From Isoetes taiwanensis (Eukaryota > Streptophyta > Lycopodiopsida > Isoetales > Isoetaceae): a stretch of DNA of 64,000 nucleotides. The notes beneath the pieces were generated by a model, which saw nothing but the letters and a program-made list of their open reading frames with translations, was not told the DNA's origin and made no database searches. The stretch spans positions 3,174,621 through 3,238,620 of the forward strand of contig JAJEKV010000095.1 in assembly GCA_021234155.1 (NCBI GenBank), read 5' to 3'. Positions 9,591 through 64,000 of the stretch are shown here, piece by piece (the stretch's first letter is position 1; each line of letters opens with the position of its first letter). The translations under genes were made by a program, and so were the position numbers.

Positions 9591-9627
9591 AACCACTATT
9601 ACTGGCAAAGATTTTTTAGCTCATTCC

Positions 9628-9803: not shown

Positions 9804-9814
9804 GCTCGATACCA
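9804..9814 (-). other. Primer-binding site for initiator tRNA-Met (inverted copy)
   Basis: On the minus strand TGGTATCGAGC, one base short of the standard plant PBS TGGTATCAGAGC complementary to the 3' end of initiator tRNA-Met. The identical one-base-short form is present at 58879-58889 in the plus copy. It marks the inner edge of the LTR. Confidence 0.75.
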
Positions 9815-25700: not shown

Positions 25701-28700
25701 CGGAGGATCCAACGGTCCGGATAGAGGCAGGGCTCGGGAGGGTGGTCATTAGCGTGCAGCCGGGGCTGCCCGGGAAAGGGCTGCCTGGGAACTTTTTGGA
25801 TCCAGCCTCACGGGGTGGGACTCTCCCCTCTTGTGAGGGATCACGCAAAGGTCCTGGCCTCGTTTGACTTGGGGAAGGGTGCCCATTTCGGTTGCCGCAG
25901 CGGGCTGCCCCGAGCCGTTCTAATGCTAACCCTTTGACCTAGACCTTCTCGAAAAATTCGAAAATTGGGCGTGTCTTTGGAGATGAATTAGGGATCCGCT
26001 GGCAAAAGCGAATTTATTTTTAGTGCAATGCATTAATTGCGAATTTCTGAATGTCTTGCCAGCGCAAAAGCCCCAGACTTCTACTTGCCACATCGGGGAG
26101 GAGGAAAGGCCCAAACTCCGCTCCGTCCCGGTTCCCCTTGCTCGTATTCTCGGCTGCTGCTTCTCGGCCAGGTCCCAATTGCAACGAGACCGGGGACTTC
26201 GGCCCCAAAGCGTAAACCCTTCTAGAGCACGGCAGCCCACGGGGTTTCGTTTGGAGGCCCTCTCCTTGTCGGTCGGTAGGGACCTTGCTTGGCGTGTCTT
26301 GAAGTGGAGTTGGGGTGTTGGCCTTGAGTAGCGGACCCTAAAATCCCTCGGGAGGCTGCTTGCCCCAAATTTCCCCTCTCCCAAGGCCACAGGGGCCGGA
26401 CCAGGCGACCTCAAGCTCTCAGGAATGTGATCTGACTCTGCCAATGGACTCGGAGCGTCGACATTGCCACAGGGACCAAGTTCGTGGCGGAAGACCACCC
26501 GAACTCCAAGAAGCGCCAAAGTAGCTCACTTCCATCACACTCGTAGTCAATTGGCCTAGGATGTGCATGCGGGGATCTTGTCGTGGGAGGTGAGTGTTTC
26601 CTTCTTCCCGCAAAACCCGGCCGTGTAACTTGCTCCCTAGGGTAATTTAGCCATTAGGACGATTTGGCGGGGGTCTATTTGCCATTCAAGGAGCATCCCG
26701 GTGCCGGCGACAAAGCGGTCACCCGGTTTCTACAAAGTAGACATCGGGGCGCCCGTGGTTTGACAAGTTCTCGGGCCGATCTGGAATCTTTTGGACCTTC
26801 GAAGAGGGGCCACGAGCGGAGGATCCAGCGGTCCCGGATAGAGGCAGGACTCAGGGAGGGTGGTCATTAAGCGTCATGCGACCGGGGGCTGCCGGGAAGG
26901 GCTGCCTCGGGAACTTTTTGGATCCGCCTCACGGGGTCAGGACTCTCCCCCCTCTTGTGAGGGATCCTGCAAAGGTCTGGCCTCGTTTGACTTGGGGAAG
27001 GGTGCCCGGCTCGGTGCCATCTGCAGCGGGCTGCGACCGTTCTAATGCTAACCCTTTGACCTAGACCTTCTCGAAAATTCGAAAATTGGGGCGTGTCTTT
27101 GGAGATGAATTAGGGATCGTGGCAAAAATTTATTTTATTTTGGGTGCAATGCATTAATTGCGAATTCTGAATGTCTTGCCGCTGCAAAAGCGCCCAGACT
27201 TCTACTTGCCACATCGGGGAGGAGGAAAGGCCCAAACTTCGCTCCGTCAGTTCCCCTTGCTCCGTATTCTCCAGCTGCCGCTTCGGCCAGTCCCAAGTGC
27301 AGACCGGGACTCGGCCTCCAAAGCGTAAACCCTTCTAGAGCACGGCAACCCACGGGGTTTACGTTTGAGCCCTCTCCATATCGATTTGGTAGGGACCTTG
27401 CCCGTGTCTTGAAGATGGAGTTGGGGTGTTGGCCTTGAGGGAGCTTGGACCCTAAAATCCCAGGAGGGCTGCTTGCCCCAAATTTCCTCTCCCCAAGGCC
27501 ACGGGGGCCGGTTGGAGGCGACCTCAGCTCTCGAATGTCCTTGTCGACTCTGCCAATGGACTCGGAGCGTCGACATTGCCACAGGGACCAAGTTCCGTGG
27601 CGAGGAAGACCACCCGAACTCCAAGAAGCGCCAAAGTAGCTCACTTCCATCACACTTTCGTAGTCAATTGGCCTAGGATGTGCATGCGGGATCTTGTCGT
27701 GGAGGCGTGAGTGTTTCCTTCTTTTCATAAAACCGGCCAGGTGTAACTTGCTCCCTAGGGTAATTTAAGCCATTCGAGACGATTTGGCGGGGTCTATTTT
27801 GCCATTAGAACATCCCCGGTGCCGAGCGACAAAGCAGTGCGGTTTCTACAAAGGCGGACATCCGGGGCGCCAGCGGTTTGACAAGTTCTCGGACCCGATG
27901 GAATCTTTTGGACCTTCGAAGAGGGCCCACGAGCGGAGGATCCAGCGGCCGGATAGGGAGCAGAGCTCGGGAGGGTGGTCATTAGCGTCTGCGACCGAGG
28001 GGGCTTGGCTGCCGGGAAGGGCTGCCTCGGGGAACTTTTGGATCCCGCCTCGGGGTGGGACTCTCCCCTCTTGTGAGGGATCCCCGCAAGGTCGGCCTCG
28101 TTTGACTTGGGGAAGGGTGCCGGCTCGGTTGCCACAGCGGGCTGCCCGGCCCGTTCTAATGCTAACCCTTTGACCTAGACCTTCTCAGAAAATTCCGAAA
28201 ATTGGGCCGTGTCTTTGGAGATGAATTAGGGATCCGTGGCAAAAACCGAATTTATTTTCGTGCAATGCATTAATTGCGAATTTACGAATGTCTTGCCAGC
28301 TGCCAAAGCCCCCGACTTCTACTTGCCACATCGGGAGGAGGAAGGCCCAAACTCCGCTCCGTCCGGTTCCCCTTGCTCGTATTCTCGGCTGCTGCTTCTC
28401 GGCCGGTCCCAAGTGCAGCAGACCCGGGACTCGGCCCCAAAACGTAAACCCTTCTAGAGCACGGCAGCCCACGGGGTTTACGTTTGGGAGGCACCCTCTC
28501 CTTGTCGGTCGGTAGGGACCTTTAGCGTGTCTTGAAGTGGAGTTGGGGTGTTGGCCTTGAGCCTTGGACCTAAAATCCCTCGGGCTGCTTGCCCCAAATT
28601 TCCTCTCCCCCAAGGCCACAGGGGCCGGGACGAGGCGACCTGGCTCTCGGGAATCGTGATCTGACTCTACGCCAATGGACTCGAAGCGTCGACATTGCCA

Positions 28701-31700
28701 CAGGGACCAAGTTCCGTGGCGAGAAGACCACCCAAACTCAAGAAGCGCCAAAGTAGCTCACTTCCATCACACTTTCGTAGTCAATTGGCCTAGGATGTGC
28801 ATGCGGGATCTTGTTGTGGTGGGCGTGAGTGTTTCCTTCTTTTTCGCCAAAAACCGGCCAGGTGTAACTTGCTCCCTAGGGTAATTTCGCCATTAGGACG
28901 ATTTGGCGGGGGTCTATTTGCCATTCGGAGCATCCCGGTGCGACGACAAAGCAGTCTGCGGTTTCTACAAGGCCGACATCGGGGCGCCAGCGGTTTTGAC
29001 AAGTTCTCGGGCCCGATCCGGAATCTTTTGGACCTTCGAAGAGGGGCCCACGAGCGGAGGATCAGCGGTCGGATAGGGGCCGGGGGCTCGGGAGGGTGGT
29101 CATTAAGCGTGCGACCGGGGGCATTTGCCGGGGAAGGCTGCCTGGGAACTTTTGGATCGCCTCACGGGGGTGGGACTCTCCCCTCTTGTGAGGGATCCGC
29201 AAGGTCGGCCTCGTTTGACTTGGGGAAGGGTGCGGCTCGGTGCATCGCAGCGGGCTGCCCGGCCGTTCTAATGCTAACCCTTTGACCTAGACCTTCTCAG
29301 AAAATTAGAAAATTGGGGCGTGTCTTTGGAGATGAATTAGGGATCGGCAAAAACGGAATTTATTTTACGTGCAATGCATTAATTGCGAATTCACGAATGT
29401 CTTGCCCTTTACCAAAAGCGCCCAGACTTCTACTTGCCACATCGGGGAGGAGGAAAGGCCCAAACTCCGCTCCGTCGGTTCCCCTTGCTCCGTATTCTCG
29501 GCCTGGCGCTTCTCGGCGGTCCCAAGTGCAGCGGACCGGGGACTCGGCCCCCAAAGCGTAAACCCTTCTAGAGCACGGCAGCCCACGGGGTTTCGTTTGG
29601 GAGGCCCCTCTCCATGTCATTTGGCGGGACCTTGCAGGTGTCTTGAAGTGGAGTTGGGGTGTTGGCGCCCGAGCCTTGGACCCTAAAATCCCTCGGGAGG
29701 TGCTTGCCCAAATTTCCTCTCCCCAAGGCCACAGGGGCCGGGGCCAGGCGACCTAAGCTCTCAGGAATCGATCGACTACGCCAATGGACTCGAGCGTCGA
29801 CATTGCCACAGGGACCAAGTTAGTGGCGGAAGACCACCCGAACTCCAAAAGCGCCAAAGTAGCTCACTTCCATCACACTCGTAGTCGATTGGCCTAGGAT
29901 GTGCATGCGGGGATCTTGTCGTGGAGGCGTGAGTGTTTCCTTCTTTTCGCAAAACCGGCCAGGTGTAACTTGCTCCCTAGGGTAATTTAGCCATTCGGAC
30001 GATTTGGCGAGGTCTATTGCCATTCGGGAGCATCCCGGTGCGAAACGACAAAGCAGTCATGCGGTTTCTACAAGGCGGAGACATCCGGGGCGCCAGCGGT
30101 TTGACAAGTTCTCGGGCCGATCTGGAATCTTTTGGACCTTCGAAGAGGGGCCTGAGCGGAGGATCAGCGGTGGGATAGGGGAGCAGGGCTCCGGGAGGTG
30201 GTCATTAGCGTCTGCGGCCGGGGGGCCCGGTGCCCGGGAAAGGGCTGCCTCGGGAACTTTTGGATCCAGCCTCACGGGGTGGGACTCTCCCCTCTTGTGA
30301 GGGATCCTGCAAGGTCTGGCCTCGTTTGACTTGGGGAAGGGTGCGGCTCGGTTGCCTACAGCGGGCTGCCCGGCCGTTCTAATGCTAACCCTTTGACCTA
30401 GACCTTCTCAGAAAATTCGAAAATTGGGGCGTGTCTTTGGAGATGAATTAGGGATCGCTGGCAAAACCGGAATTTATTTTCGTGCAATGCATTAATGCGA
30501 GAATTCACGAATGTCTTGCCCTTTGCAAAGCGCCCCAGACTTCTACTTGCCACGCCGGGAGGAGGAAAGGCCCAAACTCCGCTCCGTCGGTTCCCCTTGC
30601 TCGCGTATTATTCATTTCTTTGCTTCTCGGCGAGGTCCCAAGTGCAGCAGACGACGGGGACTCGACCCCCAAAGCGTAAACCCTTCTAGAGCACGGCAAC
30701 CCCCCGGGGTTTACGTTTGGGCTCCCTCTCCTTGTCGGTCGGTAGGGACCTTTTAGTGTCTTGAAGTGGAGTTGGGGTGTTGGCCTTGGTAGCGGACCCT
30801 AAAATCCCTCAGGAGGCTGCTTGCCCCAAATTTCCCTCTCCCCAAGGCCACAGGGGCCGGGCCAGGCGACCTCGGCTCTCAGGAATCGCGATCGACTCTG
30901 CCAATGGACTCGGAACATCGACATTGCCACGGGGACCAAGTTCGTGGGCGAAGACCACCGAACTCAAGAAGCCAAAGTAGCTCACTTCCATCACACTCGT
31001 AGTCAATTGGCTAGGATGTGCATGCGGGATCTTGTCGTGGGCGTGAGTGTTTCCTTCTTTCGCAGAAAACCGGTAGTGTAACTTGCTCCCTAGGGTAATT
31101 TTCGCCATTCGGACGATTTGGCGGGGTCTATTTGCCGATGGAAACATCCCGGTGCCCGAGCGACAAAAGCAGTCCGGTTTCTGCCGGAGGCATCGGGGGC
31201 CCAGCGGTTTGACAAGTTCTCGGACGATCTGGAATCTTTTGGACCTTCGAAGAGGGGCCTGAGCGGAGGATCAGCGGTCGGATAGGGGAGGCAGGGCTCG
31301 GGAGGTGGTCATTAGCGTCGCGACCAGGGGGCCAGCGGCCGCCGGGAAGGGCTGCCTCGGGAACTTTTGGATCCAGCCTCACGGGGTCAGGACTCTCCCC
31401 TCTTGTGAGGGATCCTGCAAAGGTCTGGCCTCGTTTGACTTGGGGAAGGGTGCCAGCTTCGGTTGCCTACCACAGCGGGCTGCCGGCCAGATTCTAATGC
31501 TAACCCTTTGACCCTAGACCTTCTCGAAAATTCCGAAAAATTGGGCCGTGTCTTTGGAGATGAATTAGGGATCGGTGGCAAAAATAGGAATTTATTTTCG
31601 TGCAATGCATTAATTGCGAATTCTGAATGTCTTGCCTTTACCAAAAGCCCCAGACTTCTACTTGCCACATCGGGAGGAGGAAAGGCCCAAACTCCGCTCC

Positions 31701-34022
31701 GTCGGTTCCCCTTGCTCGGTATTCTCGGCTGGCGCTTCTCGGCCCGGTCCCAAGTGCAGCAGACCGGGGACTTCGGCCCCCAAAGCGTAAACCCTTCTAG
31801 AGCACGGCAACCCACGGGGTTTCGTTTGAGGAGGCCCTCTCCTTGTCGGTCGGCCGGGACCTTGCGCCGTGTCTTGAAAGTGGAGTTGGGGTGTTGGCCG
31901 CCAGAGCGCGGACCCTAAAATCCCTCCGGGGCTGCTTGCCCCAAATTTCCTCTCCCAAGGCCACGGGGCGGGCCGGGCGACCTCGGCTCTCGGAATCGCG
32001 ATCGACTCGCCAATGGACTCAGAACATCGACATTGCCACGGGGACCAAGTTCGTGGCGAGGGAAGACCACCCGAACTCCAAGAAGCGCCAAAGTAGCTCA
32101 CTTCCATCACACTTTCGTAGTCAATTGGCCTAGGATGTGCATGCGGGATCTTGTCGTGGAGGGCGTGAGTGTTTCCTTCTTTCGCCAAAACCGGCCAGGT
32201 GTAACTTGCTCCCTAGGGTAATTTCGCCATTCCGGACGATTTGGCGGGGTCTATTTGCCATTAGAAGCATCCCGGTGCCCAACGACAAACAAGTCTGCGG
32301 TTTCTCTGAGGACATCGGGGGCCCGCGGTTTGACAAGTTCTCGGACGTCATCGGAATCTTTTGGACCTTCAGAAGAGGGGCCCGAGACGGAGGATCAGCG
32401 GTCCGGATAGGGGAACGGGGGCTCGGGGAGGGTGGTCATTAGCGTGCAGACCGGGGGGGCTGCCGAGGAAGGCTGCGCCTCGAGAACTTTTTGGATCAGC
32501 CTCACGGGGTGGGACTCTCCCCTCTTGTGAGGGATCCCCGCAAGGTCTGGCCTCGTTTGACTTGGGGAAGGGTGCCGGCTCGGTTGCCCTGCAGCGGGCT
32601 GCCCCGACCGGATTCTATGCTAACCCTTTGACCTAGACCTTCTCAGAAAATTCGAAAATTGGGCCGTGTCTTTGGAGATGAATTAGGGATCGGTGGCAAA
32701 AAGGAATTTATTTTAGGTGCAATGCATTAATTGCGAATTTCTGAATGTCTTGCCATCGCAAAAGCGCCCCAGGCTTCTACTTGCCACATCGGGGAGGAGG
32801 AAAGGCCCAAACTCCGCTCCGTCGGTTCCCCTTGCTCCGGTATTCTCCGACTCTTGCTTTCGGCCAGGTCCCAAGTGCAGCAGGACCGGGGACTCGGCCC
32901 CAAAAGCGTAAACCCTTCTAGAGCACGGCAGCCCACGGGGTTTCACGTTTGGAGAGCCCTCTCCTTGTCGGTCGTAGGGACCTTTAGGTGTCTTGAAGTG
33001 GAGTTGGGGTGTTGGCCTTGAGCTTGGACCCTAAAATCTCTCGGGAGGCTGCCCCAAATTTCCTCTCCCCAAGGCCACGAGGGGCCGGGCCAGGGCGACC
33101 TCGCTCTCGGGAATCGCGATCGACTCTCGCCAATGGACTCGAGAGCGTCGACATTGCCACAGGGACCAAGTTCGTGGCGAGGAAGACCACCCGAACTCCA
33201 AGAAAGCGCCAAAGTAGCTCACTTCCATCACACTTTCGTAGTCAATTGGCCTAGGATGTGCATGCGGGGATCTTGTCGTGGAGGCGTGAGTGTTTCCTTC
33301 TTTTCGCCAAAACCGGCCAGGTGTAACTTGCTCCCTAGGGTAATTTAAGCCATTCGGACGATTTGGCGGGGGTCTATTTGCCATTCAGGAGCATCCCGGT
33401 GCCGAGCGACAAAGCAGTCCCGGTTTCTACAAGGTAGACATCGGGGGCCCAGCGGTTTGACAAGTTCTCGGACCCGATCTGGAATCTTTTGGACCTTCGA
33501 AGGGGCCCGAGCGGAGGATCAGCGGTCGGATAGGGGCAGGGCTCGGGAGGGTGGTCATTAGCGTCGACGGGGAATTTGCCGGAAGGGCTGCCTCGGGAAC
33601 TTTTGGATCCGCCTCACGGGGTCGGACTCTCCCCTCTTGTGAGGGATCCCGCAAGGTCTGGCCTCGTTTGACTGGGGGAAGGGTGCCGGCTCGGTTGCCA
33701 CAGCGGGCTGCCCCGGCCGTTCTAATCTAACCCTTTGACCTAGACCTTCTCAGAAAATTCGAAAATTGGGCGTGTCTTTGGAGATGAATTAGGGATCGTG
33801 GCAAAAATCGGAATTTATTTTCGTGCAATGCATTAATTGCGAATTTCTGAATGTCTTGCCAGCGCCCCCGACTTCTACTTGCCACATCGGGGAGGAAAGG
33901 CCCAAACTCGCTCCGTCGGTTCCCCTTGCTCCGTATTCTCTCATTTGCTGCTTCTTGGCGAGTCCCAAGTGCAACGGACCGGGACTTCGCCCCCAAAGCG
34001 TAAACCCTTCTAGAGCACGGCA
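22737..34022. repeat. Satellite array inside the CACTA element, unit about 1.1 kb
   Basis: The landmark GCAATGCATTAATTGCGAAT occurs near 24918, 26026, 27146, 28263, 29371, 30484 (variant), 31601, 32719 and 33825, with a variant at 22883. Spacing after the first is 1106-1120 bp. Another landmark, TCTTGAAGTGGAGTTGGGG, keeps the same period. There are nine intervals plus a partial unit; the first interval is about 2.03 kb because it contains extra sub-repeats. The array begins near 22737 at GCTCGGTTGCC and stops abruptly at 34022. Units differ mainly by 1-3 base indels around CAG/CTG/CC contexts. No conserved open frame persists through all units on either strand, so coding is unlikely. Confidence 0.92.
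23060..24085. repeat. Expanded sub-repeats (about 305 bp) within the first satellite unit
   Basis: The segment from TAAACCCTTCTAGAGCACGGC through GAAGTGGAGTTGGGG recurs near 23070, 23375, 23680 and 23990 (about 305-310 bp apart). It is present once in each later 1.1-kb unit. This indicates a second, local amplification within the array. Confidence 0.85.
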
Positions 34023-43450: not shown

Positions 43451-43572
43451 CTGATGTTTGATGGTTGGAAGAGCAAGATTAGCTTCGATCTCATTTCTCA
43501 CCCTATGGTGCAACGATTGCTCAGTTATCCTTATTGCGCCAAGAAAAAAATTAGAAGAGTTGAACCACAGGA

Positions 43573-43643
43573 TCCATTGGCCGAGAATCGAACTCAGGTC
43601 TGTACCGTGGCAGGGTACTATTCTACCACTAGACCACCAATGC
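43573..43643 (-). tRNA. trnG-GCC: tRNA-Gly (anticodon GCC), copy 1
   Basis: 71 nt, the usual plant length. GGTCTAGTGGTAGAAT D-arm, CCCTGCCACGG anticodon arm with GCC, and GTTCGATTC T-loop are all intact. The acceptor stem has one defect: position 1 G faces G, because CCAATGG replaces CCAATGC. It may be weakly functional or a pseudogene. Confidence 0.88.
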
Positions 43644-44057
43644 ACAAGTAATACAAATGAATACCTTTTTAATTAACAAGCACATACAACCAACTCAATC
43701 AAATGCATCTCATAATCCAGTTCTCAAAAAAATATCGTGGTCGTACAATAAGGTGTAGGAATGGTTGTTCTTCTAATAAGTCCAAACAAATGATTATGCC
43801 AAGGCATAAAGCGACAAGATTTGCTTAATCACCGTGTTTTGCCATGCTTGAACTTGATATCATCAAAAATTGAAAGAATTTAAATGTTAATGAGTAACAA
43901 TGTCGAGCATTGGTGTGCCACTAATGGGGCTATGCATAAACCCTAGAATATTGCGTCAGTGGAAGAGTGCGTAGGGAATCTGAATGACAAACTCTAAATA
44001 TTAATCGAATGGACGTATGTGATAGGGACTATAAAATAATATGAAAAAGCTCCTACA

Positions 44058-44139
44058 CGTGGATGATACGATTCAAACCTATGCGAGCAAAGCCCACATG
44101 ATTTCTAGTCATGCCCAATAACCACTCTGGCACATCCAT
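44058..44139 (-). tRNA. trnS-AGA: tRNA-Ser (anticodon AGA), copy 1
   Basis: 82 nt with a long variable arm, as expected for a type II tRNA. Anticodon arm CATGA-CTAGAAA-TCATG gives AGA. The first acceptor pair is A-C rather than G-C, and the T-loop reads GTTTGAATC instead of GTTCGAATC, so this copy looks degraded compared with copy 2. Confidence 0.85.
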
Positions 44140-44396
44140 GACGGCATGTGGAATACTTCCGTTTCTTCTTAGATCATTGAAATATTTAGGAGGATAGGAT
44201 TTGGCTAGTCATTTGTTCTCTTTCATTGTGATGTTTGATGGTTGGAAGAACAAGATTAGCTTCGATCTCATTTCTCACACTATGGTGCAATCGATTGCTC
44301 AGTTATCCTTATGTCATTATCAACATGGTTTAATGCATTAAATCTTCTTTTTGGCTCTTGCGCCAAGAACAAAATTGGAAGAGTTGAACCACAGGA

Positions 44397-44467
44397 TGCA
44401 TTGGCCAAGAATCAAACTCGGGTCTGTACCGTGGCAGGGTACTATTCTACCACTAGACCACCAATGC
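44397..44467 (-). tRNA. trnG-GCC: tRNA-Gly (anticodon GCC), copy 2
   Basis: 71 nt with a perfect seven-pair acceptor stem (GCATTGG/CCAATGC) and an intact GCC anticodon arm. The B box has GTTTGATTC in place of GTTCGATTC, which may reduce Pol III promoter strength. Confidence 0.88.
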
Positions 44468-44514
44468 ACAAGTAATACAAATGAATACCTTCTTCATTAA
44501 CAAGCACATACAAC

Positions 44515-44641
44515 CAACTCAATCAAATGCATCTCATAATCCAGTTCTCAAAAAATTATCGTGGTCGTACAATAAGGTCACCTTATTGTACGACCACGAT
44601 ATTTTTTTGCGAACTGGATTATGAGATGCATTTAATTGAGC
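44515..44641. repeat. Near-perfect palindrome, arms about 60 bp
   Basis: The arm starting CAACTCAATCAAATGCATCT and ending CGTACAATAAGGT is followed immediately by its reverse complement, to TTAATTGAG at 44641. There is almost no loop. Copy 1 of the duplication has only the single arm at 43690-43755, so the inversion arose after duplication. It could also be a foldback sequencing artefact. Confidence 0.82.
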
Positions 44642-44953
44642 ACCGTGCAGGAATGGTTGTTCTTCTAATAAGTCCAAACAAATGATTATGCCAAGGCATA
44701 AAGCGACAAGATTTGCTCAATCACCGTGTTTTTCCATGCTTGAACTTGATATCATAAAAAATTGAAAGAATTAACATGTGAATGAGTAACAATGTCGAGC
44801 ATTGGTGTGCCACTAATGGGGGCTATGCATAAACTCTAGAATATTGCGTCAGTGGAAGAGTGCGTGGGGAATATGAATGACAAACTCTAAATATTAATTG
44901 AATGGACGTATGTGATAGTACGGACTATAAAATAATATGAAAAAGCTCCTACA

Positions 44954-45035
44954 CGTGGATGATAGGATTCGAACCTATGCGAGCAAAGGCCACATAATTT
45001 CTAGTCATGCCCAATAACCACTCTGGCACATCCAC
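44954..45035 (-). tRNA. trnS-AGA: tRNA-Ser (anticodon AGA), copy 2
   Basis: 82 nt with perfect GTGGATG/CATCCAC acceptor stem, AGA anticodon loop (CTAGAAA), long variable arm and canonical GGTTCGAATCC T-loop. This is the best preserved of the four tRNAs. The poly-T edge of the Penelope-like element lies only 17 bp upstream of its 5' end. Confidence 0.92.
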
Positions 45036-47288: not shown

Positions 47289-49044
47289 TCCTTACCACCC
47301 GCCTAGGAAATTGTTCCGGCAATTTTTAAGGGCTGCCAAAAGGCGATTTGATATTTTCAGTCAGAAATATCAAGTATGGAAGTCTGGAAACAGATTTGAG
47401 GTTTTTATTTTAAATTCAGTTTTCTAGTTCTGCAGGCGGTTACTACGAGGAAATACTAATTACGAAACTTTTGCCGATGATTATAGGATGAGGCCAGAAA
47501 AGATGACCATAATTACTGGATCAAAGAACTCAGGTTCTTTAAATATCATGAGTGTGGGGTCGATAGCCCTAATCTGGCAGTTCAAACAATAGTTGCTTGC
47601 ATCAGAAATAAGGAAATCCATGATTACATCACATTCAAGGAGACAAATCTAGTAGACAAGGCAAGATCTCCTATTACCTTTTTAGGTTTCAATGGTTGGT
47701 TTAAGCTGCTCCATACTATGAAGAAGAACAATTTTGAGTATACTAAATGCAAAGGCGCCATTCTGGAAATTTACAATGATATGAACAATATCTTGTACCA
47801 ACGAACCTGTCAAGAGGATGATATTGCCAGAAATTTCGTGATTGGCCTCACTGCACTTGAAGTAGGCAATGAAATCTATCCATCTTTTGATCCTACTGAT
47901 GATCTACCAAGCAATGATGATGAAACATGCCTTTTTTCTGAAAAGGATCTGATAGAACCTGATTTCTTCAATATACAGTCACAGTCACCTAACGTGGATA
48001 CTGCTGACAATGAACAACAGCATAATGTTGAGCAAGAGGAGGTCCCCAATCTTACTTTAGGAAACTCATCTTGTTTTCCTATCATCATTGAGCAATCTGT
48101 GGAAGGACTGGCAGCTGCGTACGACCACGCCATTTGGAAAAGTCAAAATTTCGGAGCTTTAGCGCCTATTAATTTGGAGACATGGATTGCACTTGCAGGT
48201 ATAACTAAAGATGAGATCATGAATGCTAAGGCCACTGCCTCCAGACTTGAAAAAACATTTTCCTATATTAACCCTGATGTTAATTTTGATATGTCCTTCT
48301 TTGATGAAGTCTGCATTAAAGATCCAGCTATCCAGGTTTGCCAAAAAGGCCACATGGCCTATCCCAATGAAGAAAGGAATGATTTCTTTTTGAAAAGGAT
48401 GTGGCGCACTCATTGCCCATACTTTAAATGTAAGTGTTTCAAGAACAAAAAATCCACATGCCATTGTGGCATTATTTGGCTGGATCAGGGTATATGGTTT
48501 TTATTAAACCACTTGGATGCTGTTTTTGAAGACTCCACACCAATCATGAAAATGGTGGCAATATATAAGCTCTTGAATAAGGTATTGAAACCGGCTGTTA
48601 TTGGTTATATTTCATACCTTGAAGTACGAAAAGTCATGATCAATATGACTCTCAAATATGCTGAAGATGCTGATGCCAATCTGAAATGTTTATATGGCAA
48701 CAACAGAATGGCTGATATAGTGGAGAAGACTATTAAACCTCTTTCCTTCTTGCACGACAATGCTGAGCAGAATGGAAAAAATCAGGGCTTCAAAAAGCAG
48801 AATGTTTACAAAGCCAAATCTAGCAAGCCTGCACCTAAGTTTACACCTAAGTTGGCTCCAAGAATTCATCGGCCGATCCCCTGCATTGACCAAATGTAAC
48901 AATATCCAGAACAAGAAACCTACCGCTATAGGTGCTGGAAACATGGAGGAAATGAACACAATCACTAAAGGTGGGAGCAAGATCATTACACTTGTGGAAA
49001 ATACTCCAGCTAATATTGAAATTGTGGAGGATTCTCAGGAATAA
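47289..49044 (+). pseudogene. Upstream exons of the Penelope-like gene with CxC cysteine cluster
   Basis: Exon-like pieces follow splice-acceptor-like sites. 47289-47400 gives DPYHPPRKLFRQFLRAAKRR. From about 47490 the frame DEARKDDHNYWIKELRFFK runs without stop to 48899, then a one-base shift continues to 49044. The 393-codon open part includes an acidic region and then CPYFKCKCFKNKKSTCHCG (about 48417-48473), a C-x4-C-x-C-x8-C-x-C cluster that probably binds zinc. Its C-terminus is Lys/Pro-rich. It lies directly upstream of the RT and probably forms one spliced protein with it. I do not recognise the family beyond the cysteine cluster. Confidence 0.6.
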
Positions 49045-49192
49045 TGTACTACAGTATAGTACATGACATTTGTCAATCGACTTTTTCTTGCAATTTCAAT
49101 ACAAAGACTATAGTTTTTTTTGAAACATGTATATAAAGTGATAATTAAAATTGCTGATTGCTTGTATGTTGCTAATAATCTGCATTGTGTAG

Positions 49193-51252
49193 GTACAGTC
49201 CAGACTCATTACTAAAGATGCAAACGGCAAAAGACATCTGAAAAATATTAAGGATACAAATGACAGAAAAATTGTGCATTTCACTTTCATATCCAAGGCA
49301 GTGGAAAAGATAGATATCAGAAAAATCTTCACATTAATACTAGAAGAGACATTACAGGAAAAAGGCACAGAATTGGTGGAGAACACCACGTTCGCATGGA
49401 GATATATTGAGCAGATAAAAGATAAGGTTTATAGACCCTTTATTATTTTTGCTGAAGATAATGAAGCTAGGTGTCCATGCCTAAATCCCAACCTGCAAAA
49501 ATACATAGACCCAAAGATTGGGCATGTGAGAACAACAGACTTGGGAATTATCCACTGCATGAAATTAAGAAAGGCATTTGCCAAAGGTCTAAACCACATC
49601 CCAGATTGTGGCCTCAGCATACAAAGTTTTCGTGAAGAATTTCTCAAACTTTGCAAACAATTTTGGGATGTCCACAAATATGAAACCATGGACCTGACAG
49701 ACATAGATACCAGTAATATTACTGAGATGCTACTGCAATATGCCCATAATGAAATTGTACAGCTAAAGGAAAGTCTACCTAACAGAAGGTTTTTGTGGGA
49801 TGACAAACAAGTCAAAAAGAACTTGGAATGGTTAACACATAACCTATTCATATCTGGTTTGGACAAAGCCAATAACAATCCGACCTTTATATGCCAAAAA
49901 CATATCCGTGAGATGGCAAGGGCAAGGCTTGAAGGGCCCGACTTTGAGTTAACTCAATGTACTTCTGAGCAAATAAAGGATGTATGCAGCAAGTTTATAC
50001 AAGAATCCTTGGATGTAGAACATGACAAAAATGGTAAATTACCGTACCTAATGGCTTGTTACAAAGCACATAAAGCGGAATACAGGTGGTTAACAAATGC
50101 AAGTGACTCTATCTTCTCATATGGGGCACGATGGATTACTGCAGTATTAAATGATATTATTGTGATCTGGCCTCAACTATGCCTAAGGCAAACTGCCCCT
50201 TACAGGTTGTTTAACAGAAACAAGATCAACGCATCATGGATGGTGAGCTCCTCATATGAGGTAATTCTGAATCTCCCATACAAAATAAGCAGTGTTTTCT
50301 CAGCAGATATAACAAGATGCTACGAAAATATACCAATATTTGGAGAAGATGGAATCATAGAAATCATGAATGATGTCATTGAACTAGCATGGGAACATAT
50401 GAGAAAAGACCAGCACCTTCTGTACATGCTGATAAAAGACAAGGCAGGAAAATTTGAAATAAAATGGGAAAGACACTTGAAAAAAGACTTGAACAAAACA
50501 TGCTAGACTGTGGTTGAAAAGGAAAAATTTAAAACTATAAACGAATGGTTATTATCACACTGCTTCCTACAATCAGGTACTGATATATGGCGTCAGAAGA
50601 AAGGTATCCCTATGGGATTTTCGTGTAGCCCAGCATGGTGTAATTTATACCTTGCTTGGCACGAATTAAGGTTTATGCTGAAACTTGCTCACAGCGGTAG
50701 ATTCAATGATATTAAGAAATTTGAAACAGCTGCAAGGTACATTGATGACCTCAGTATACTGAATGCAAATAACATTGGAGAGTTCTTTGATAAGCAGGCA
50801 GAGACTACTGTATACAACATGCATCATCTTGGCATAAAAGATGAAACTGAATATGAAACAGATGGAGATGAAACGCATGGTTACAGCATTAACTTCCTTA
50901 ATGTCAACATAAGGGTGATGGACAGAAATAGAGGTCTCTTTGAGATTTCAAGATATGATAAAAGAAACAAACTGCCTTTTGAGGTATACAAGTTTGTAAA
51001 AGCAGATAGTTGTAGACCATACTGGCATGCACTAAAAGTGATAATTTCGCAAATTCTACCATATGTTTACGCACATTCGATCACGCTAAAGCTGCTGAAG
51101 ATATACTTAACCTAATTGATACCTTTGCTAAGAATGGTTTCGGCAAGAAAGAATTATGCAGAACAGTCCTGAGATATCTACAGGAAGAACAATTTTCTGG
51201 GGTTCTATACAACATTGGGGATATGATACAAACTCTGAAGAGATTGATGTAA
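49193..51252 (+). pseudogene. Penelope-like reverse transcriptase with in-frame stop and frameshift
   Basis: The exon begins after TGCATTGTGTAG at 49192. RT motifs in order: ISGLDKANNNPTFICQKHI (motif 1), LPYLMACYKAHKAEYRWLT (motif 2), VFSADITRCYENIP (motif A, Asp present), GIPMGFSCSPAWCNLYL (motif B), ARYIDDLSILN (catalytic DD), INFLNVNIRV (motif D), then VYKFVKADSCRPYWHA and a thumb with HAKAAEDILNLIDTFAKNGF. This order and the late [YF]xKxxxxxRYxxxxxHxxK-type segment suit Penelope-like RTs. A single TAG at 50504-50506 splits the open frame between motifs A and B. A one-base shift near 51075 separates the thumb, and the protein would then end at 51252. All catalytic residues are otherwise preserved. 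Confidence 0.85.
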
Positions 51253-53720: not shown

Positions 53721-54222
53721 CTGTGCACATATGTTTGGTGTTAAGTAGTCTGTCTGTACATGTTTGACTGTTTGACTTCAACGGAATACAATTGAGACAA
53801 CCTTTGGGTGAGGTGGAAAATGGGGTTTGACCCCATCTCGTTTTTAGATGAACGGCTATAGTTTGTGGGTTTGGAATAATCCATGGAATATTACTTGGAT
53901 CAAGGGCCAGGGTTAGACGAGCATTGAGGGTTAGACGAATATGAGAACCCCTTATGCTAGTTTGTGTATACGTTTTCATTTGCATTGTTTTTATGATTTT
54001 TATATTCTATAGGCCCTAAATTTCCTGTTCTTCACATATTTCACAAACATATAACAATATATAACAAATAAACAATGATTATATGACTTTTTTTTAGTTT
54101 AGATGCTACATATTCACTCAAGGGAGTTTGAACTATGTATATGTTGTATTGTTGCTTGTTTCTTTATTTGGTTTTGTTTTCTTTTGTTAGGGCCCGAAGG
54201 GCCAAAAAATTTTTTTAGTATA
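53721..54222. other. Unassigned spacer between the AP-4 fragment and MITE 1
   Basis: AT-rich. A small hairpin GGGCCCGAAGGGCC at 54191-54204 resembles GGCCCCGAGGGGCC at 56040-56053 just beyond MITE 2. The two may be outer parts of the MITE ends. Confidence 0.4.
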
Positions 54223-54677
54223 ACTACCAACTCATAACTATCATTAACATTAATTATTCCAAACCATTGCATTCCACACTTAAAAATAAAATTCCCCCTT
54301 AAACCCCCTTTGGTTTGGGTGCATATTCACACGGGGGGTGACGTAAGGCGGCGAGAGCCCCTAAAATCATGTTATACATATACAAAATCAATACCATATA
54401 GTACATTCTCTCAAATCTTATAGTATTTCGCAAATTGTGTTATACAGTATACCAAAACTTGTACAGGCATACCCCACAAATGAGGATCACTATGTACGGT
54501 CTAGATCGAGGAATAAAAGGCATATATGCTCATCCGACAGCTCTCGATGCCCGGAGTCACCCCCCGTGTGAATATGCACCCAAACCAAAGGGGGTTTAAG
54601 GGGGAATTTTATTTTTAAGTGTGGAATGCAATGGTTTGGAATAATTAATGTTAATGATAGTTATGAGTTGGTAGTTA
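54223..54677. mobile_element. Foldback MITE 1
   Basis: Arms of about 118 bp are almost perfect inverse copies: 54223-54341 and 54556-54677. Both contain CCCCCTTTGGTTTGGGTGCA and TATTCACACGGGGGGTGAC. The 0.21-kb centre is AT-rich and non-coding. It shares arms' inner half and centre with MITE 2. Confidence 0.9.
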
Positions 54678-55370
54678 AACATGGCTACTAGAAGGAAGCT
54701 AGATCTAGAAGCTAGTATGGCTCCCAAGAGAAAGAAGATTTGGGAATTTCGTAGAGTTGCACAGGCTGCAAAACCAACTGATAATTCAGAAAGTTCCAAG
54801 AAGGATAAGGGGGCAGAGAGCTTAGCTGGGAAAAATGGAGAAGGCAATAGTAAGGCTGGTAAAGAGCATTCTACTAGTAATAAAGGCTATGGAGAATTCC
54901 CTGCAAACAAAGAGGCTGACTCAAAAGAAGATGATGGATCTGGAGCAATGGCCAAACAACACAAGGAAATCCCCTCCGAGCTTAAATTTATTCAAAGTTA
55001 ATGCTTACCAAAGTGATTTTACCCAATTGCCTGATGGGTTGTAAAATTATTTGAATCTAATTACGTATATTCAACTTAATGTGCTTTAGTAGAATTCGAT
55101 CTGTAAGTATTAGAATACATTTAATGAGGTTGATCCTGATTTGCTTAATAGAAAGCTAATTTATAGATCATCTTGGGGCGACATTGTAGAGCTTGCTGGC
55201 TTGATGTTAACTCAGGATAATGTTTATGGAATAGTCCTATGTGTAGCTACTCTTGTATGATTAAATAGAGTTTAACTGCTGAATGAGAAAAGAAATATGC
55301 AGAAATACCCTTCATAATGCATATAGGCAGAAATATCTCTGGTCTGGATCTATGTTACATATGAAGGTAA
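54678..55370 (+). mobile_element. Penelope-like element copy 2, second segment
   Basis: Matches 45496-46187 closely, from AAACATGGCTACTAGAAGG to ATGAAGGTAATCA. It contains the same lysine-rich frame (54681-55001, starting MATRRKLDLEAS), truncated near its end by a small indel. It is bounded by MITE 1 on the left and MITE 2 on the right. Confidence 0.88.
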
Positions 55371-55374
55371 TCAC

Positions 55375-56020
55375 AACCAACACATAATTACCATTGACAT
55401 TAACAACCAACACATAATTACCATTGACATCCAACATATAAAAATTAAATCCCCCAACACATAACAACCAACACATAACAACCATTGACATTAACAACCA
55501 ACACATAATTACCATTGACATTAATTAACACAACCATTGAGTCCAACACATTTAAATTAAAATCCCCCTTAAACCCCCTTTGGTTTGGGTGCATATTCAC
55601 ACGGGGAGTGACTCCGGGCAACGAGAGCTGTTGGATAGGCATATTCACTCCTTATTCCTTAATCTATATCGTACGTAAAGTTCCTCGTTTGTGGGGTATG
55701 CAAGTACAAAATTTGCTATACTGTATACTAAGATTCACAAAATACTATAAGATTTCAAGCGGAATACTATATGGTGTTGATTTCATATGTGCAAAATACA
55801 ATTATGAGGGCTCTCGCTGCCCTACATCACCCCCCGTGTGAATATGCACCCAAACCAAAGGGGGTTTAAGGGGGATTTTAATTTAAATGTGTTGGACTCA
55901 ATGGTTGTGTTAATTAATGTCAATGGTAATTATGTGTTGGTTGTTAATGTCAATGGTTGTTATGTGTTGGTTGTTATGTGTTGGGGATTTAATTTTTATA
56001 TGTTGGATGTTAATGGTTTG
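55375..56020. mobile_element. Foldback MITE 2
   Basis: Arms of about 188 bp: 55424-55611 and 55826-56012, near-perfect inverses, sharing with MITE 1 the inner block CCCCTTTGGTTTGGGTGCAT. The left arm is extended by further copies of a 25-bp unit (AACCAACACATAATTACC...). Its central 0.2 kb is homologous to that of MITE 1 in inverse orientation. No coding. Confidence 0.9.
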
Positions 56021-57320: not shown

Positions 57321-58878
57321 TGTGACGTTCAAAGACAAGATACGCTCCGTGATTTACATTGTATCGCCACGCCACGCCAGATTATCGCCACCCCGATTGA
57401 CGGTACGCCAACGGATAGCTGTGTAAGTAGCCCTAGGGGGCAACTTGCTAGGAGTGTTCATATATTATTAATGTGCACATGTGCACATTAATGAGGGCAC
57501 ACCTTTCCATGTTGGCATATTTTGCCACCTAGCCACTAAAGGCAAGTGGGGCCTTTCCAATTATCCCACATGCCAAATTGGGTAATTGGAAACCCTAGCC
57601 TAAACCCCCATGTCTATTTAGGGTAGGAAAACCCTAGCTTGCTAGTTTTTCGTCCTTAGGGTTTTAGAGCTCGGTTTTGGCTGCCCTGTGAGCCAAAACC
57701 GCCCCCGTGACGCTGCCTTAAGCGAATTGCGCCATCGGTTTCCACAATCCGATCAATTCGGCAGATGGTTGAACTCGGTCGAGGAGCCACTCAAGGATCA
57801 GTATTTGGTCAATTTAATAGCTTAAACCGCCTTCTAGTCATAGAATCAAGAGGTTTAGACTATTAAATTGCCCATAGTAGTTATCTAGATCTTAGATCTG
57901 GGACACTAACTAAAGAACCTAACTCTATGATTGGATCTAGTTCTTTAGTTCTTCCGTGATATATTTGGATGATGTATTTTTCGTGAACTCCTTGTATTGG
58001 GAAGGGGGTAGAGGCCCTAAAGCTTGTAGTTGATGCTCCTAGAGTAGCCTCTCTAGCACAATGTAGATTCGGCTGGTGGTACAAGAGCCACACCGGGTTG
58101 TGGGTGAAGGGGCAGACTGGCTAAAAAGGAGGTTCATGTCCCCGACTCTTGAACGATCCCCCGGTGTGTGTAAAGCCACCGGGATCATTGTGACTAGGTC
58201 TAATGGCTTACCACCGCGGGTAAGGCATGGGCTCGACACCCGTGAAGTGGTGTACACTTTCCGCTGGGTTGGTCGAATCACGGGCAAAGGGCCCTCTAGT
58301 CACCTTGAGTTAGCATGCAGATCTCCTGAGGAGTGATCCCTACCGCCCCATCGAACCGGGAGGATGAGACCCGTGAATAGCCCTTCGGCTATGCATCCGC
58401 TGGCTACTGGCCAGTCCCAACACTTTTCAGCCTTACCGCAAAGTGTGCATGGGAGGGGCGGATGGAGTGGACAACCCTATGCCATGTTCTTATGCCGCCC
58501 AAATCCATTGCCATGAATTCTGCCTCAAGAACGAACTGCGAGACCCAAGCCGCCACCATCCATTGAGTCCGAGCCTTGGGTAGGATCCCCCTATGTGATG
58601 TGCCGATCTTTGTCTATGCAGATATGAGGGGACCATCCTTCGAGATGGTCACAGGATGTTGATGTATGTGCTAATTGACATGTATGTTTACGCCCGCAGC
58701 CTAGGTAGGCCCCGAGGGAGACGGGTAGAATGACACCTTCACTCTCCCCACCGAGACTCGTTACGGGTGCGCAAATGATATGTGGAGGGCCCCCAGATCA
58801 GCATGGAGCTGGTGTGGGGAAGAACTTCCTGCTTGTATACGGTGAGTGCACCGTGATAATGAGTAGGGGACGCCACGG
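57321..58878 (+). mobile_element. 5' LTR of element R (plus copy)
   Basis: Starts TGTGACGTTC exactly where the Penelope-like copy is interrupted, and ends at GGGGACGCCACGG just before the primer-binding site at 58879. The inverted copy (43450-43123 plus 10954-9815) is homologous along its length. Terminal TGTGACGT and GACGTCA (inverted copy) suggest a short inverted repeat at the LTR ends. Length is about 1.56 kb. No coding region. The 3' LTR would lie beyond the window, so identity between LTRs cannot be measured. Confidence 0.75.
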
Positions 58879-58889
58879 TGGTATCGAGC
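58879..58889 (+). other. Primer-binding site for initiator tRNA-Met (plus copy)
   Basis: TGGTATCGAGC, the standard plant PBS TGGTATCAGAGC minus one A, directly after the LTR. It is followed by AATGTTCTTGG, as in the inverted copy. Confidence 0.78.
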
Positions 58890-59437: not shown

Positions 59438-59445
59438 TATAAATA
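59438..59445 (+). promoter_or_regulatory. TATA box for accessory gene A
   Basis: TATAAATA, 106 bp upstream of the ATG at 59551, in the right place for a Pol II start near 59470. It is conserved at 9227-9234 in the inverted copy. Confidence 0.72.
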
Positions 59446-59550: not shown

Positions 59551-60515
59551 ATGGCCCGAACCAAACAGACCGCAAGGAAGCGTCGCCCAGGCGAAACCAC
59601 CAGCGCCACTGAGACAGAGATCATTCGGAAGATGCTTCGTGAGAGGCTCGCAAGAGGGGATCGTTCGCCTTCGGACGAAGAGCAAGACACCTCTGATTTG
59701 ATCGATGTCTTCAACCGCCAGTGGAGGACGAGGCCACATCACCAAACTCCATGGACGCATTTTAGACGAGGGAGGTGTATGAAGAAATAGAGCGGGAGAT
59801 CCGGCAGCCAGAACAAGCGAGATGAGCAAGTGGCCGGGTTTGGAGCCCGGAGGTAGCGTGAACCTTAGAAGATTCATCAGGAAGTACGAGCGCCGGCAGA
59901 AGAGAAGGGAGGACAAAAAGAGGAAAAGGAAGGAGGAGGAACAAAAGACAGCAGAAGAAAAGAAGGAAGCAAAAGGGAAGTTCGTGGCTGGCATAAGGAG
60001 AACAAAGGACTGCCCGCCAAGGAAGAGGCCGAACCCCAACATTATCATCAAGGAGCGGCAACCTGACGAACCCCCAAACCCTTCCGACGACTCTTCTGAT
60101 GGGGACTTCAACCCTAACGCTGCAGGTGGAAGCTCTTCCAAGAATCCAGGTGACGAGCAAGAAGTACCTCGAGCACCGCAAGACCGAAAGCAACCCCAAA
60201 GAAGACCAAGTGCAGAAGCCCCCTGAATACCCGGCATGGGATAGAAAGAAGCAACCACGACCTGCCCGGGAAGCCTACGTCACCGACAGGGTGAAGATTT
60301 ATGAGAGGAAGATGAGAGAGCACGAGGCCTACATGAAGAAATGGGAGGCCTATAACAAATATTATGAGGAAAACAGGGTTAAGTTCATCGAGGAGGGCGA
60401 CCAACGGCAAAGAAACCCTAAGGCCGCCACCACCGGCCCAAAGGTTCCCAAGCCGCCACCCGTGAAGAAAGCGGATAGGAAGGAGGTGGAGAGAAGAGCG
60501 TTAAGGGGAGATTAG
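59551..60515 (+). pseudogene. Element R accessory gene A: basic protein with a histone H3-like N-terminus
   Basis: The start at 59551 gives MARTKQTARK, the first ten residues of histone H3 including K4 and K9. The next residues (RRPGETTSA) are unrelated. The first frame runs 79 codons, with an acidic EEQDTSDLID patch. Coding then continues in other frames: EVYEEIEREI near 59770, a Lys/Arg/Glu-rich coiled segment at 59822-60226 (KYERRQKRREDKKRKRKEEE), and 60150-60515 with KIYERKMREHEAYMKKWEAY and a basic end. About 320 residues in total if frames were continuous, but at least two shifts break it as read. Composition suggests a nuclear, nucleic-acid- or chromatin-associated protein; no enzyme domain is seen. 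It lies between the PBS and gag with its own TATA box. The start is fixed by the homologous ATG in the inverted copy. Confidence 0.7.
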
Positions 60516-60916
60516 ACACTTCCAACAAGCTTTCGGTCTCCTAATCCCCGCGGCCCCTCCGGTTGGTGCGTGAAGTTATGCGTGCCTATAGAACAGACTT
60601 TAGAGTCACGGGCATTTAGAAATTTGCTGGCAATGCAAGAGGCGGTTGAGGCAAAGATAGTGCAACATTTTGAAGATTCAACAGCCTGCACTATCCACGC
60701 ATGGCGGGTAACCTTAACGCGACAAGACATGAGTCTTATGACCGCATTAAGGGGAGAAGCCTTTAGAAACTTTTTTTGTTGTAAATAATTAAAAAAATTT
60801 TGTAATATAGAGCAATTTTGTGTACCTTGATGACATAAACTTGAGTAATTAGAGCAAATTAATAAGTTTTAGCTTTTATTTCAGGTGAAATAGGACATTT
60901 GGGAGCCGAGACATGA
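60516..60916. other. Spacer between accessory gene A and the next hairpin pair
   Basis: Includes a 72-codon frame (60570-60788) without recognised domain. AT-rich after 60785, possibly the 3' untranslated end of gene A. Confidence 0.4.
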
Positions 60917-61371: not shown

Positions 61372-61379
61372 TATAAATA
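61372..61379 (+). promoter_or_regulatory. TATA box for accessory gene B
   Basis: TATAAATA, 115 bp before the ATG at 61494. The orthologous octamer lies at 7231-7238. Confidence 0.72.
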
Positions 61380-61493: not shown

Positions 61494-63051
61494 ATGGCAA
61501 CTTCTGATTTCCAGAGATGGTACAGCGCCAGCGCTCATGCTGCTGAGGCCGACGTCGACCAAATCTTCCAGATTTTCAGGAAGGAGGTAGACGTCCAAGC
61601 AACCTTGCACGCGACCCCAGCTTATAGTAGAGTCTTGACTGAGTTCCAAGCTAGGGTAGAACCAGCGCTAGTGCAACTCCCTCCTTGTATAGGATATTTT
61701 GTTCCTAGACAGTCCCTGCAGGCAGCATTAGACGATGTCCCGAACATCGCCAAATACCTCACAAACAAAGCGCACCGCACACCTGAGCCAATGGTCCTAA
61801 CTGTCAACAGGACCAAGTACTTTCTTTCAACACCGCCTCGGGCAATCTTTCTCACCCAATCGCGTCGCCGAGAACATTGTGGGGGAAACCTCTATTCCCC
61901 CCATGGACGTGGATCCATTAGCCGTAGCAGCAGAACAACGGCTCCTCACACAGTATGAACAGGAGCAGGAAGGGAAGGAAGAAGACTCGGATGAACAGGA
62001 ATCCGAGGAGGAGGAAGACGATGTTGAGCTCGACCCAGCAGAGGAGCAGCGACAAGCAGAGCGGGAGTGGCAAGACTTCGAAAGAAGCCGGCAGACTCTC
62101 AGAGTCGCGCCACCCCTCGGGTTAGGCATCACAAGCCTGGCTCCCATTATCGTCGAAGGTGAGGAGTTTCTACTCCCTGGCGACATTCAAAACCTCCCCG
62201 GAGTGTGGAAAAGGGAATACCGACCTGAAGAGTTGCCGCACCAACTCGAAGAACAGACTTGGACGACTTCATCGTCTCGAGGAGTCCCGACTTCCCCTCC
62301 AAGTAAGGGAAGCCGACACTTACACGGGAGAGTTTACCTCCGACATCCAAGCCTACAGCAACATCAGGCAGATCATGGAGGCAGACAAGGCTGAGAACAA
62401 GCTACCGACGGAGGAAGAGTTCCTTGCTCTCCAGGAACAGATGGGGATCCGTTATGCGACCTCAAACATCCTAACGCAAGCTCGGCCCGCTAACCTCCCG
62501 GGATAGGACAGCTTAATTCGACCTCGAGAGGGCTTCAAAGAACATCAAGGACTACAGGGGAGCTCACACCACGGTGGAGGTTGATGATTTCGGAAGCAGA
62601 CACAGAGCTGGATACCGAGTGGCCGAGGACCCGTCTCGCAACGACAGGTCATTACGCTATTACCTGCCATTGCTGATGGATGGAAGAATAGCGGTTATCC
62701 ACCGCAAGTTCACCCCCGTGAGGCGAGGAAGGAGTATCGCTGCTGATTGCACTCTCAGGATTCGGCCGGCATGCACGGCTACCCCTTAACACCGAGTATG
62801 CAATCCTGGTGAAAAGAGCGGTAGCACTCGACGCCTTCGACTTCGCCATACCTTACAAAGCGGCAAAAGTAAGACTGGCCGCTGACAGCAGCCTTACACC
62901 TCCCACCTTGAGAATAGAAGATTTAGCAAGAGCATTACAGGTGGATCTCCAGCCAATGTCCTTAGGAACTTGGGCCATTCAAAGGGGAACAGCCCAAGTG
63001 AAAAAGTTCTTGGAGGATAATCCATCTTACCAGGCATCACCGTATGATTAG
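61494..63051 (+). pseudogene. Element R accessory gene B, unknown function
   Basis: The start MATSDFQRWYS is supported by the homologous MATSSIQ start at 7124 and by the upstream TATA box. The first frame (to about 61870) is conserved with the inverted copy at protein level (for example VDVQATLHATPAYSRVL). The next frame, from about 61879, holds a very acidic stretch (EEDSDEQESEEEEDDVELD). Further pieces at about 62260-62506, 62560-62760 and 62806-63051 (ending NPSYQASPYD) continue in shifted frames. Total about 510 codons with at least three shifts. No zinc knuckle, protease or known domain is seen, so it is not obviously gag. Replacement-tolerant yet recognisable similarity between copies suggests it was once a coding gene. 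Confidence 0.62.
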
Positions 63052-63408
63052 CGGTAGTTGCAAGTTCTTGTATTAGTGTAATATAAAATATAAATATAAC
63101 ATTCTCTTGCACTATAAATGTTTTGTTGATACATTTTGTGTCCCCTCAACCATGCCAACAAACATAAATAATGCAAGAAAGCAAGGAAAACTAACCATGT
63201 AGATATGAACCACTTGTGTATGCAAGCTAGGAGGCCCGAGCGCCAGAGAACGACAACCGAGGGAACTTACAGGGGAACAGAGCCCGCCTGTGCCACGCCG
63301 ACGCAAGGAACCCGCTTGAAGAGTTTGGACAAATGACTCCGAAGAAGAAATATCGCAAATGAGGACGGACCTCCTCGAACAGATAAAGTTTGCCTAGCCG
63401 CACAAGCT
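63052..63408. other. Spacer between accessory gene B and gag
   Basis: No supported gene. AT-rich at first, then GC-richer from 63230. A leader to gag is likely. Confidence 0.4.
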
Positions 63409-64000
63409 GTGAGCAGGTTGGTGGGTAACGCCAACCGCCGCAAAGCATCAGCTCGGAGAACAGGTAGAGACAGGAAGAGGAGCAAGAGAGGAAGGTCCCC
63501 AGCTTGGACTCCTCCGACTCAAGCTCTCCGATTCAGACCGATTCCGAGGAAGAAGAAGAGCGTAACCAAGTCCGAAAGGCATCTAAAGGCAAAGAGGAAC
63601 CACCCGAGGGACGACAAAGGGACACAAGAACCTCGACTACGGAAGAAAGTAGACTCTGATTGGGAAATGTTTGGAAGGCCAGGAAGCTCGAGCAATTCTC
63701 AAAGCAGAACAGGTCGCATGGAAGCGGAGGCTTGGCTTGACGAGATGAGCCGAACACGGCAATGCCTATGGTATGAAGGATAAGGATAAAGGCAGGGTGG
63801 CAACAAATAACTGAAGGGAGCAAAGACGATTTGGTGGAAGGGCTATGCCAAGGCTCATGGCTTGCTGGGGATGCTTGCGGTGTTCAAGAAGTTTGCTAAA
63901 GCCTTCTGCCGCCATTACGCCCAAGAGAGCACAAGTCCAAGATGATGCGCCAGCTTCTGTGTTGCAAGAAGGCAACAAGTCAAGATGCAAATACAATGAG
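63409..64000 (+). CDS. Probable gag, 5' part, running off the window
   Basis: 63409-63783 opens with a basic stretch (RRTGRDRKRSKRGRS). An alternative frame over 63500-63660 is Ser/Asp/Glu-rich, so a shift is likely. Near 63719 it reads MEAEAWLDEMSRT, and further on IWWKGYAKAHG and FKKFAKAFCRHYAP. This resembles the Retrotrans_gag order AExWLxxM..., WW, then FxxxFxxxYxP. Frames change at least twice. The assignment rests on these short patterns and on position after the accessory genes. Confidence 0.5.

Follow-up and report, generated by a model that had tools for sequence, protein, structure and literature searches.

We analysed a 64,000-nucleotide stretch of the Isoetes taiwanensis genome, the window (C1106:3174621-3238620), within a genome of 1,658,258,908 bases in 1110 contigs that was searched throughout. 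The assembly is described as 1658.30 Mb in 204 scaffolds and 909 contigs built from Illumina, Nanopore and Bionano data, with Gypsy elements making up 10.7% of it (PMC8566536; this and the other papers are cited for the parts of their text that were available). At its right-hand end the window holds the 5' part of a ~13-kb Ty3/Gypsy chromodomain LTR retrotransposon, and at its left an older relative of the same element, with the following features:

57321-58876 (+): 5' LTR, beginning TGTGACGTTC, with the 5-bp target site duplication (TSD) tgtgt (comparison of the LTR pair)
58879-58889 (+): TGGTATCGAGC, resembling a primer-binding site, immediately internal to the 5' LTR (sequence)
59438-59445 (+): TATAAATA, 113 bp before the ATG of gene 1
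59551-59790 (+): gene 1, first open piece, 79 aa, ended early by a frameshift at ~59726 (ORF)
59822-60515 (+): gene 1, charged linker, over two frames, 59822-60226 and 60099-60515 (ORFs)
60486-60758 (+): gene 1, region encoding the H3 histone fold; this copy is frameshifted and has partly decayed here (tblastn with the fold of an intact copy, E=4e-24)
61372-61379 (+): TATAAATA, 122 bp before gene 2
61494-63051 (+): gene 2, starting MATSDFQRWYSASAHAAEADVDQIF, broken in this copy (ORFs)
63300-64000 (+): gag-pol region, approximate start (ORFs, Pfam)
68892-70443 (+, window-extended coordinates): 3' LTR, beyond the window, 91.4% identical to the 5' LTR
6848-10877 (-): older, diverged and degenerate relative of the element (71-74% identity), with its gene 1 ATG at 9126-9124 and fold remnants at 8054-7853

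A chromodomain retrotransposon with two additional genes

The features that define a Ty3/Gypsy chromovirus are present: LTRs, a 5-bp TSD, gag, the order PR-RT-RH-IN and a chromodomain. The zinc knuckle, protease, reverse transcriptase (RT), RNase H, integrase and chromodomain lie at 64151-68046 in window-extended coordinates, past the window end (Pfam, ORFs), and the primer-binding-site-like TGGTATCGAGC is presumably of the initiator tRNA-Met type. Similarly spaced LTR pairs occur in eight of ten other copies fetched at length (one pair being split into two pieces); of the two that remain, one has just a 185-bp stretch and the other has none. The K2P distance between LTRs, gaps ignored, is 0.085 for the window pair and ranges from 0.047 to 0.092 over eight pairs including the window. 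A 5-bp TSD can be read in the window, L009, L010, L013 and L017, and also in L015 on the assumption that the LTR there has lost one base at its start; at L020 a TSD was looked for and is absent, and the LTR ends of L016 and L042 could not be placed.

Two extra genes lie between the primer-binding site (58879) and gag, each with an upstream TATAAATA (59438 and 61372). Gene 2 is open over 450 aa in copy L051 (3668-5017, minus strand), and searches of Pfam and the PDB gave no convincing relative for it.

Elsewhere in the window, a tandem array of about ten ~1.11-kb units occupies 22764-33845, and at its left end a shorter sub-repeat of ~305 bp is found. The region 54218-55997 contains inverted repeats nested within one another, which are 141-224 nt long and reach 95% complementarity. 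Another retroelement-like unit, at 47487-51112 (+), has long open frames and matches RVT_1 weakly (E=1e-4); a section of it is found again at a distance of 24 kb, with 98.7% identity. A small cluster of alternating tRNA-Gly(GCC) and tRNA-Ser(AGA) genes is found at 43570-45035 (-).

Gene 1 begins with the histone H3 tail

Codons 59551-59580 (+), read and translated, spell MARTKQTARK at the very start of gene 1. The frame at 59551-59790 translates as MARTKQTARKRRPGETTSATETEIIRKMLRERLARGDRSPSDEEQDTSDLIDVFNRQW..., running on after these ten residues as RRPGETTSATETEIIRKMLRERL until a stop at codon 80. A degenerate codon pattern for MARTKQTARK has this single match in the 64-kb window with up to three mismatches allowed, a result equalled by none of 100 shuffles. 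An earlier note on this DNA had described an exact H3-tail start at 59551 in a gene with its own TATA box inside an LTR element, and all three parts of that description are confirmed, the last by the paired LTRs. The TATA-type TATAAATA, which lies between the 5' LTR and gag, is retained in 39 of 39 related copies, always 109-117 bp upstream of the start. The note had further taken the inverted copy as proof that the ATG is the true gene start; the homologous ATG at 9126-9124 (-) does support this, and what follows it reads MALTQADGQRK..., with no H3 tail.

The window copy of gene 1 is dead. Its 79-aa product is a broken piece; other copies stay in frame beyond ~59726. This piece has no match in the PDB or the protein database and a single Pfam match that falls below the cutoff, and the 240 bases of 59551-59790 have no match among plasmids.

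An intact copy encodes a tail, a long linker and an H3 fold

Among ten copies read through gene 1, L055 is the sole one open across all 403 codons. Its product consists of H3 tail residues 1-9, a charged linker of ~300 aa (32 K, 36 R, 43 E and 21 D in 303 aa) and a C-terminal H3 fold. The Pfam Histone family (PF00125) matches residues 289-399 with E=2.1e-28 and 99.5 bits, compared with a curated cutoff of 26.4, and the best PDB matches are H3.3 and H3 chains (E=2.6e-26). The fold is of the H3 type and not that of H2A, H2B or H4, as all of the best 60 of 176 PDB matches are named H3. A protein database search with the full-length product (P0002) yielded no full-length relative among the best 120 of 2537 matches, all of which cover at most 40%; with the fold only, the best 120 of 908 matches were mostly H3s, many of them without names, and some CENH3s. 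The last 183 residues found no relative in IMG/VR.

The earlier note had likened the ten residues to the short H3-tail mimics known in a few host and viral proteins. This did not hold, and we reject an isolated mimic, because the same gene encodes both the tail and, ~290 residues downstream in the same open frame, a Pfam Histone fold, which makes the product a whole H3-like protein.

The window-family fold is 58-59% identical to host H3 and 63% identical to the fold of a second family, C4 (see below). Residues C110, H113, R116, T118, D123, L126, I130, R69, R72 and R83, which we take to form the H3-H3' interface or to touch DNA, are retained in each of the two element folds compared, and many positions that presumably contact H3', H4 and DNA are likewise unchanged. 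Contact residues are mostly retained, which at the level of sequence would be compatible with incorporation into nucleosomes with H4. Both folds also carry R63P and F84V, so nucleosome assembly may differ from that of host H3, a point that weighs against the reading we favour.

The tail recurs with different linkers throughout the genome

Genome-wide, the degenerate pattern has 1051 exact sites, rising to 1410 with up to one mismatch and 2321 with up to two; the reversed pattern, used as a control, has none at any mismatch level. The 911 sites with exactly two mismatches nearly match the exact ones in number and indicate that many copies have altered tails, which also counts against our preferred explanation. 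Twenty sites were read, picked for distinct spelling among 100 listed of the 1051; two are ordinary 136-aa host H3 genes (L086 and L087) and 18 are element genes, a ratio that is no estimate of the whole.

By eye, the 18 element sites fall into about five linker types (six window-like, three C4-like, four C35-like, four C33-like and one other), between which no alignment is visible, and one C33-like site has a stop directly after the tail. Together with the window these sites spell the identical tail in 19 different ways, all synonymous and on average 5.96 nt apart; as the sites were found through the tail, the spellings reveal codon drift and not how often the tail is retained. Serine at position 10 is present in none of the 18.

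H3-fold sequence follows downstream in all three of the other linker types checked (C4, C35 and C33, one site each). It is unbroken in L091, the C4 site, whose linker has one stop, and broken in L092 and L093. A motif, YY..(N/H)RV(K/R).IEGG.PT, lies directly before the fold in P0002, L091 and L093, and so is common to three families. The C4 element also has an RT on the same strand and at a similar distance, which over 200 aa shows 84% identity with the window-family RT. DNA searches returned 587 candidates for the window family, 249 for C4 and 484 for C35, and the family copies described below were drawn from the best 40 of each.

Conservation of the tail and selection on gene 1

In the window family 31 of the 39 copies fetched carry the exact tail (32 of 40 when the window copy is counted), as found with a query that contained the tail. 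For C4 and C35 we used linker queries free of the tail, taken from copies originally found by it, and fetched 20 of the 39 others listed for each. The start is kept in 19 of the 20 C4 copies and the exact tail in 11; the eight inexact tails differ by one or two residues (MARRKQTARK, MARTKQTACK, MARTEQTARK, MARTKQTAPK three times, MARMEQTARK and MARTKHTARK). The C35 family, with six exact tails among 20 copies and 14 without, is a further point against the favoured reading. In these 14 (among L115-L134) the KQTA codons are scrambled, each copy in its own way, mostly between ATGGCCCGC and AAGGAAG, with the flanks mostly intact; we suspect that the garbled tails may be systematic Nanopore consensus errors at methylated motifs.

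Gene 1 is under purifying selection in the C4 family. By the Nei-Gojobori method, applied to the query and 19 copies (L112, which has no start, was left out, and one stop codon each in L095 and L103 was skipped), dN/dS is 0.098 for the tail codons and 0.113 for codons 11-59, at a pS of ~0.34. The tail value is barely below that of the adjoining linker, so the tail shares in the constraint on the protein and is hardly singled out. Nor does the tail stand out from its surroundings in the window family, in which the 5' UTR is equally conserved. Between linker types, linker and fold vary far more than the tail does, a comparison that is biased because the sites were found through the tail. The earlier note had proposed that an H3-like tail be looked for in multiple copies and under purifying selection, and had named uniqueness to a single copy as the outcome that would speak against it: the tail recurs in all three families sampled, and selection on the gene start (dN/dS ~0.11) bears out the proposal in the one family tested.

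Relationship to H3, CENH3 and other histones carried by mobile elements

The two unbroken element folds, P0002 and L091, form one clade (support 99/98) apart from H3 and CENH3, in a tree with two element rows and five CENH3-type rows (one unnamed), without a lycophyte CENH3, in which L091 has a long branch and the bootstrap is not fully settled. We considered capture of a CENH3 gene. The element fold resembles plant CENH3 in its HFQ, LLIP..A.F and VTLM..D signatures, and CENH3 proteins typically have a long, divergent N-terminus. Although these signatures are suggestive, we rejected this origin, as the element folds do not group with CENH3 in the tree and loop 1 has the length of host H3, without the CENH3-type insertion; a C-terminus of the GG...PW type is also missing. 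Canonical plant H3, as represented by the host genes L086 and L087, shares with the element protein the MARTKQTARK start and a fold equally long through loop 1, whereas in the element the stretch from residue 10 to the fold is replaced by the ~300-aa linker and the fold itself is diverged.

The closest parallel is found in fungi, where H3-like (H3L) genes reside inside hAT DNA transposons of Pyrenophora tritici-repentis (PMC3538342) and other Dothideomycetes (PMC6710886). These too are H3-like genes carried by a transposable element, with an H3-type tail and a PF00125 fold, and amplified with it. The carriers differ: the fungal one is a DNA transposon, present in the P. tritici-repentis reference as 26 copies that closely resemble one another, and the Isoetes one is a plant LTR retrotransposon in several diverged families, with a long linker, its own TATA, purifying selection in one family, and LTRs and pol in place of the TIRs of a hAT element. 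Giant viruses likewise are mobile genetic entities that encode their own core-histone-like proteins, although they are DNA viruses with histone doublets (PMC9405923), in contrast to a retroelement with a single H3-like fold.

With group II plant chromoviruses the element shares the order gag-PR-RT-RH-IN-chromodomain (PMC3350952), to which it adds two genes with their own TATA between primer-binding site and gag, one of them H3-like. Its chromodomain reads YLVKWKHLP and, by reading of the sequence, lacks Y24 and Y48, as group II chromodomains do (PMC3350952). A chromodomain without the group I cage pattern makes a loop between the element's own K9 tail and its chromodomain doubtful.

Our literature search, which covered the best-ranked matches, few subscription journals and no preprints, found no LTR-retrotransposon-encoded histone. 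A review of plant transposable-element mimicry mentions no histone mimic in its available text (PMC12085086), and the word 'histone' is absent from the main text of the Isoetes taiwanensis genome paper as far as it was available (PMC8566536).

Discussion

Taken together, the ten residues most likely form the start of a histone-H3-like protein whose gene belongs to a Ty3/Gypsy chromodomain LTR retrotransposon. As to what the protein does, we think on balance that the element makes an H3 variant which would enter chromatin or compete there. An H3 gene would have been captured from a host in a single ancient event and would then have gained the ~300-aa linker. The product may be imported into the nucleus with or like host H3, where it could pair with H4 in nucleosomes, whether on the element's DNA or the host's, or compete with host H3. 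Its tail, identical to H3 around K4 and K9 and lacking S10, would at the least be offered to the host's writers and other enzymes and to its readers. In host H3, phosphorylation of S10 frees K9; the K9 of the element tail could not be freed in this way. The element might benefit by altered silencing or by integration into chromatin that it has marked. Against this reading stand the dead state of the window copy and the fact that nine of the ten copies read through gene 1 are not open over it.

The same tail could instead serve as a soluble decoy outside nucleosomes, where the free H3 tail, perhaps with the fold, would titrate away writers and readers of K4/K9 or chaperones of H3-H4 and thereby weaken silencing. 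The earlier note had proposed that the element could recruit chromatin modifiers or act as a decoy for them, and it may do so. That residues 1-9 are the same despite quite different linkers, in sites found by the tail, fits this idea, as does the missing K9-S10 switch in 18 of 18 element sites; a pure decoy would not need the fold, however, and the fold is kept, with its interface residues conserved in both unbroken examples, so that we regard a decoy as unlikely, if worth serious consideration. We consider it more unlikely still that the protein is a structural component of the particle, in which fold and basic linker would package element RNA or cDNA or act as a gag-side nucleocapsid or NLS module, and the tail would be a basic signal for import or nucleic-acid binding. 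The highly charged linker and the position of gene 1 upstream of gag agree with such a role, and virus-encoded histones are known in virions (PMC9405923). Yet gene 1 has a separate TATA and a separate ORF and is not fused to gag, and the exact order ARTKQTARK, which recurs beside different linkers, is more than a basic signal would call for.

That gene 1 is a captured fragment of host H3 carried along without function, like many transduplicated genes, is very improbable. Most copies read are indeed broken, and in several species the H3 sequences in fungal hAT elements are RIP-damaged (PMC6710886); a passenger would nonetheless be hard to square with a dN/dS of ~0.11 (58 codons, 20 copies of the C4 family), a pre-fold motif common to three families and a TATA retained in 39 of 39 related copies. 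We give almost no weight to chance codons or to host H3 misassembled into repeats, for which one could cite the partly Nanopore-based assembly (PMC8566536) and the many small indels in the repeats. A chance tail was rejected on copy number, with 1051 genome sites against none for the reversed pattern, on the 19 distinct synonymous spellings in element context and on the H3-fold homology downstream.

Returning to an H3 variant that acts in chromatin, a broader proposal, which we advance tentatively, is that one lineage among plant LTR retrotransposons has for a long time encoded an H3 variant of its own, with the K4/K9 tail and without S10, and may thereby build or mark its own chromatin or jam host K9 methylation, controlling silencing and integration. 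Plant transposons are silenced largely via H3K9 and DNA methylation (PMC12085086). An element-encoded H3 with an intact K9 reader and writer peptide and no S10 would, if this is true, offer a direct handle on how a parasite manipulates silencing. It would also provide a natural test of the importance of individual tail residues, and because this is a large family, with 249 to 587 candidates in each DNA search, selection on each residue is measurable. Element- and virus-encoded histones would then extend to plant LTR retrotransposons, and the Isoetes element would be a parasite with a nucleosome component of its own making.
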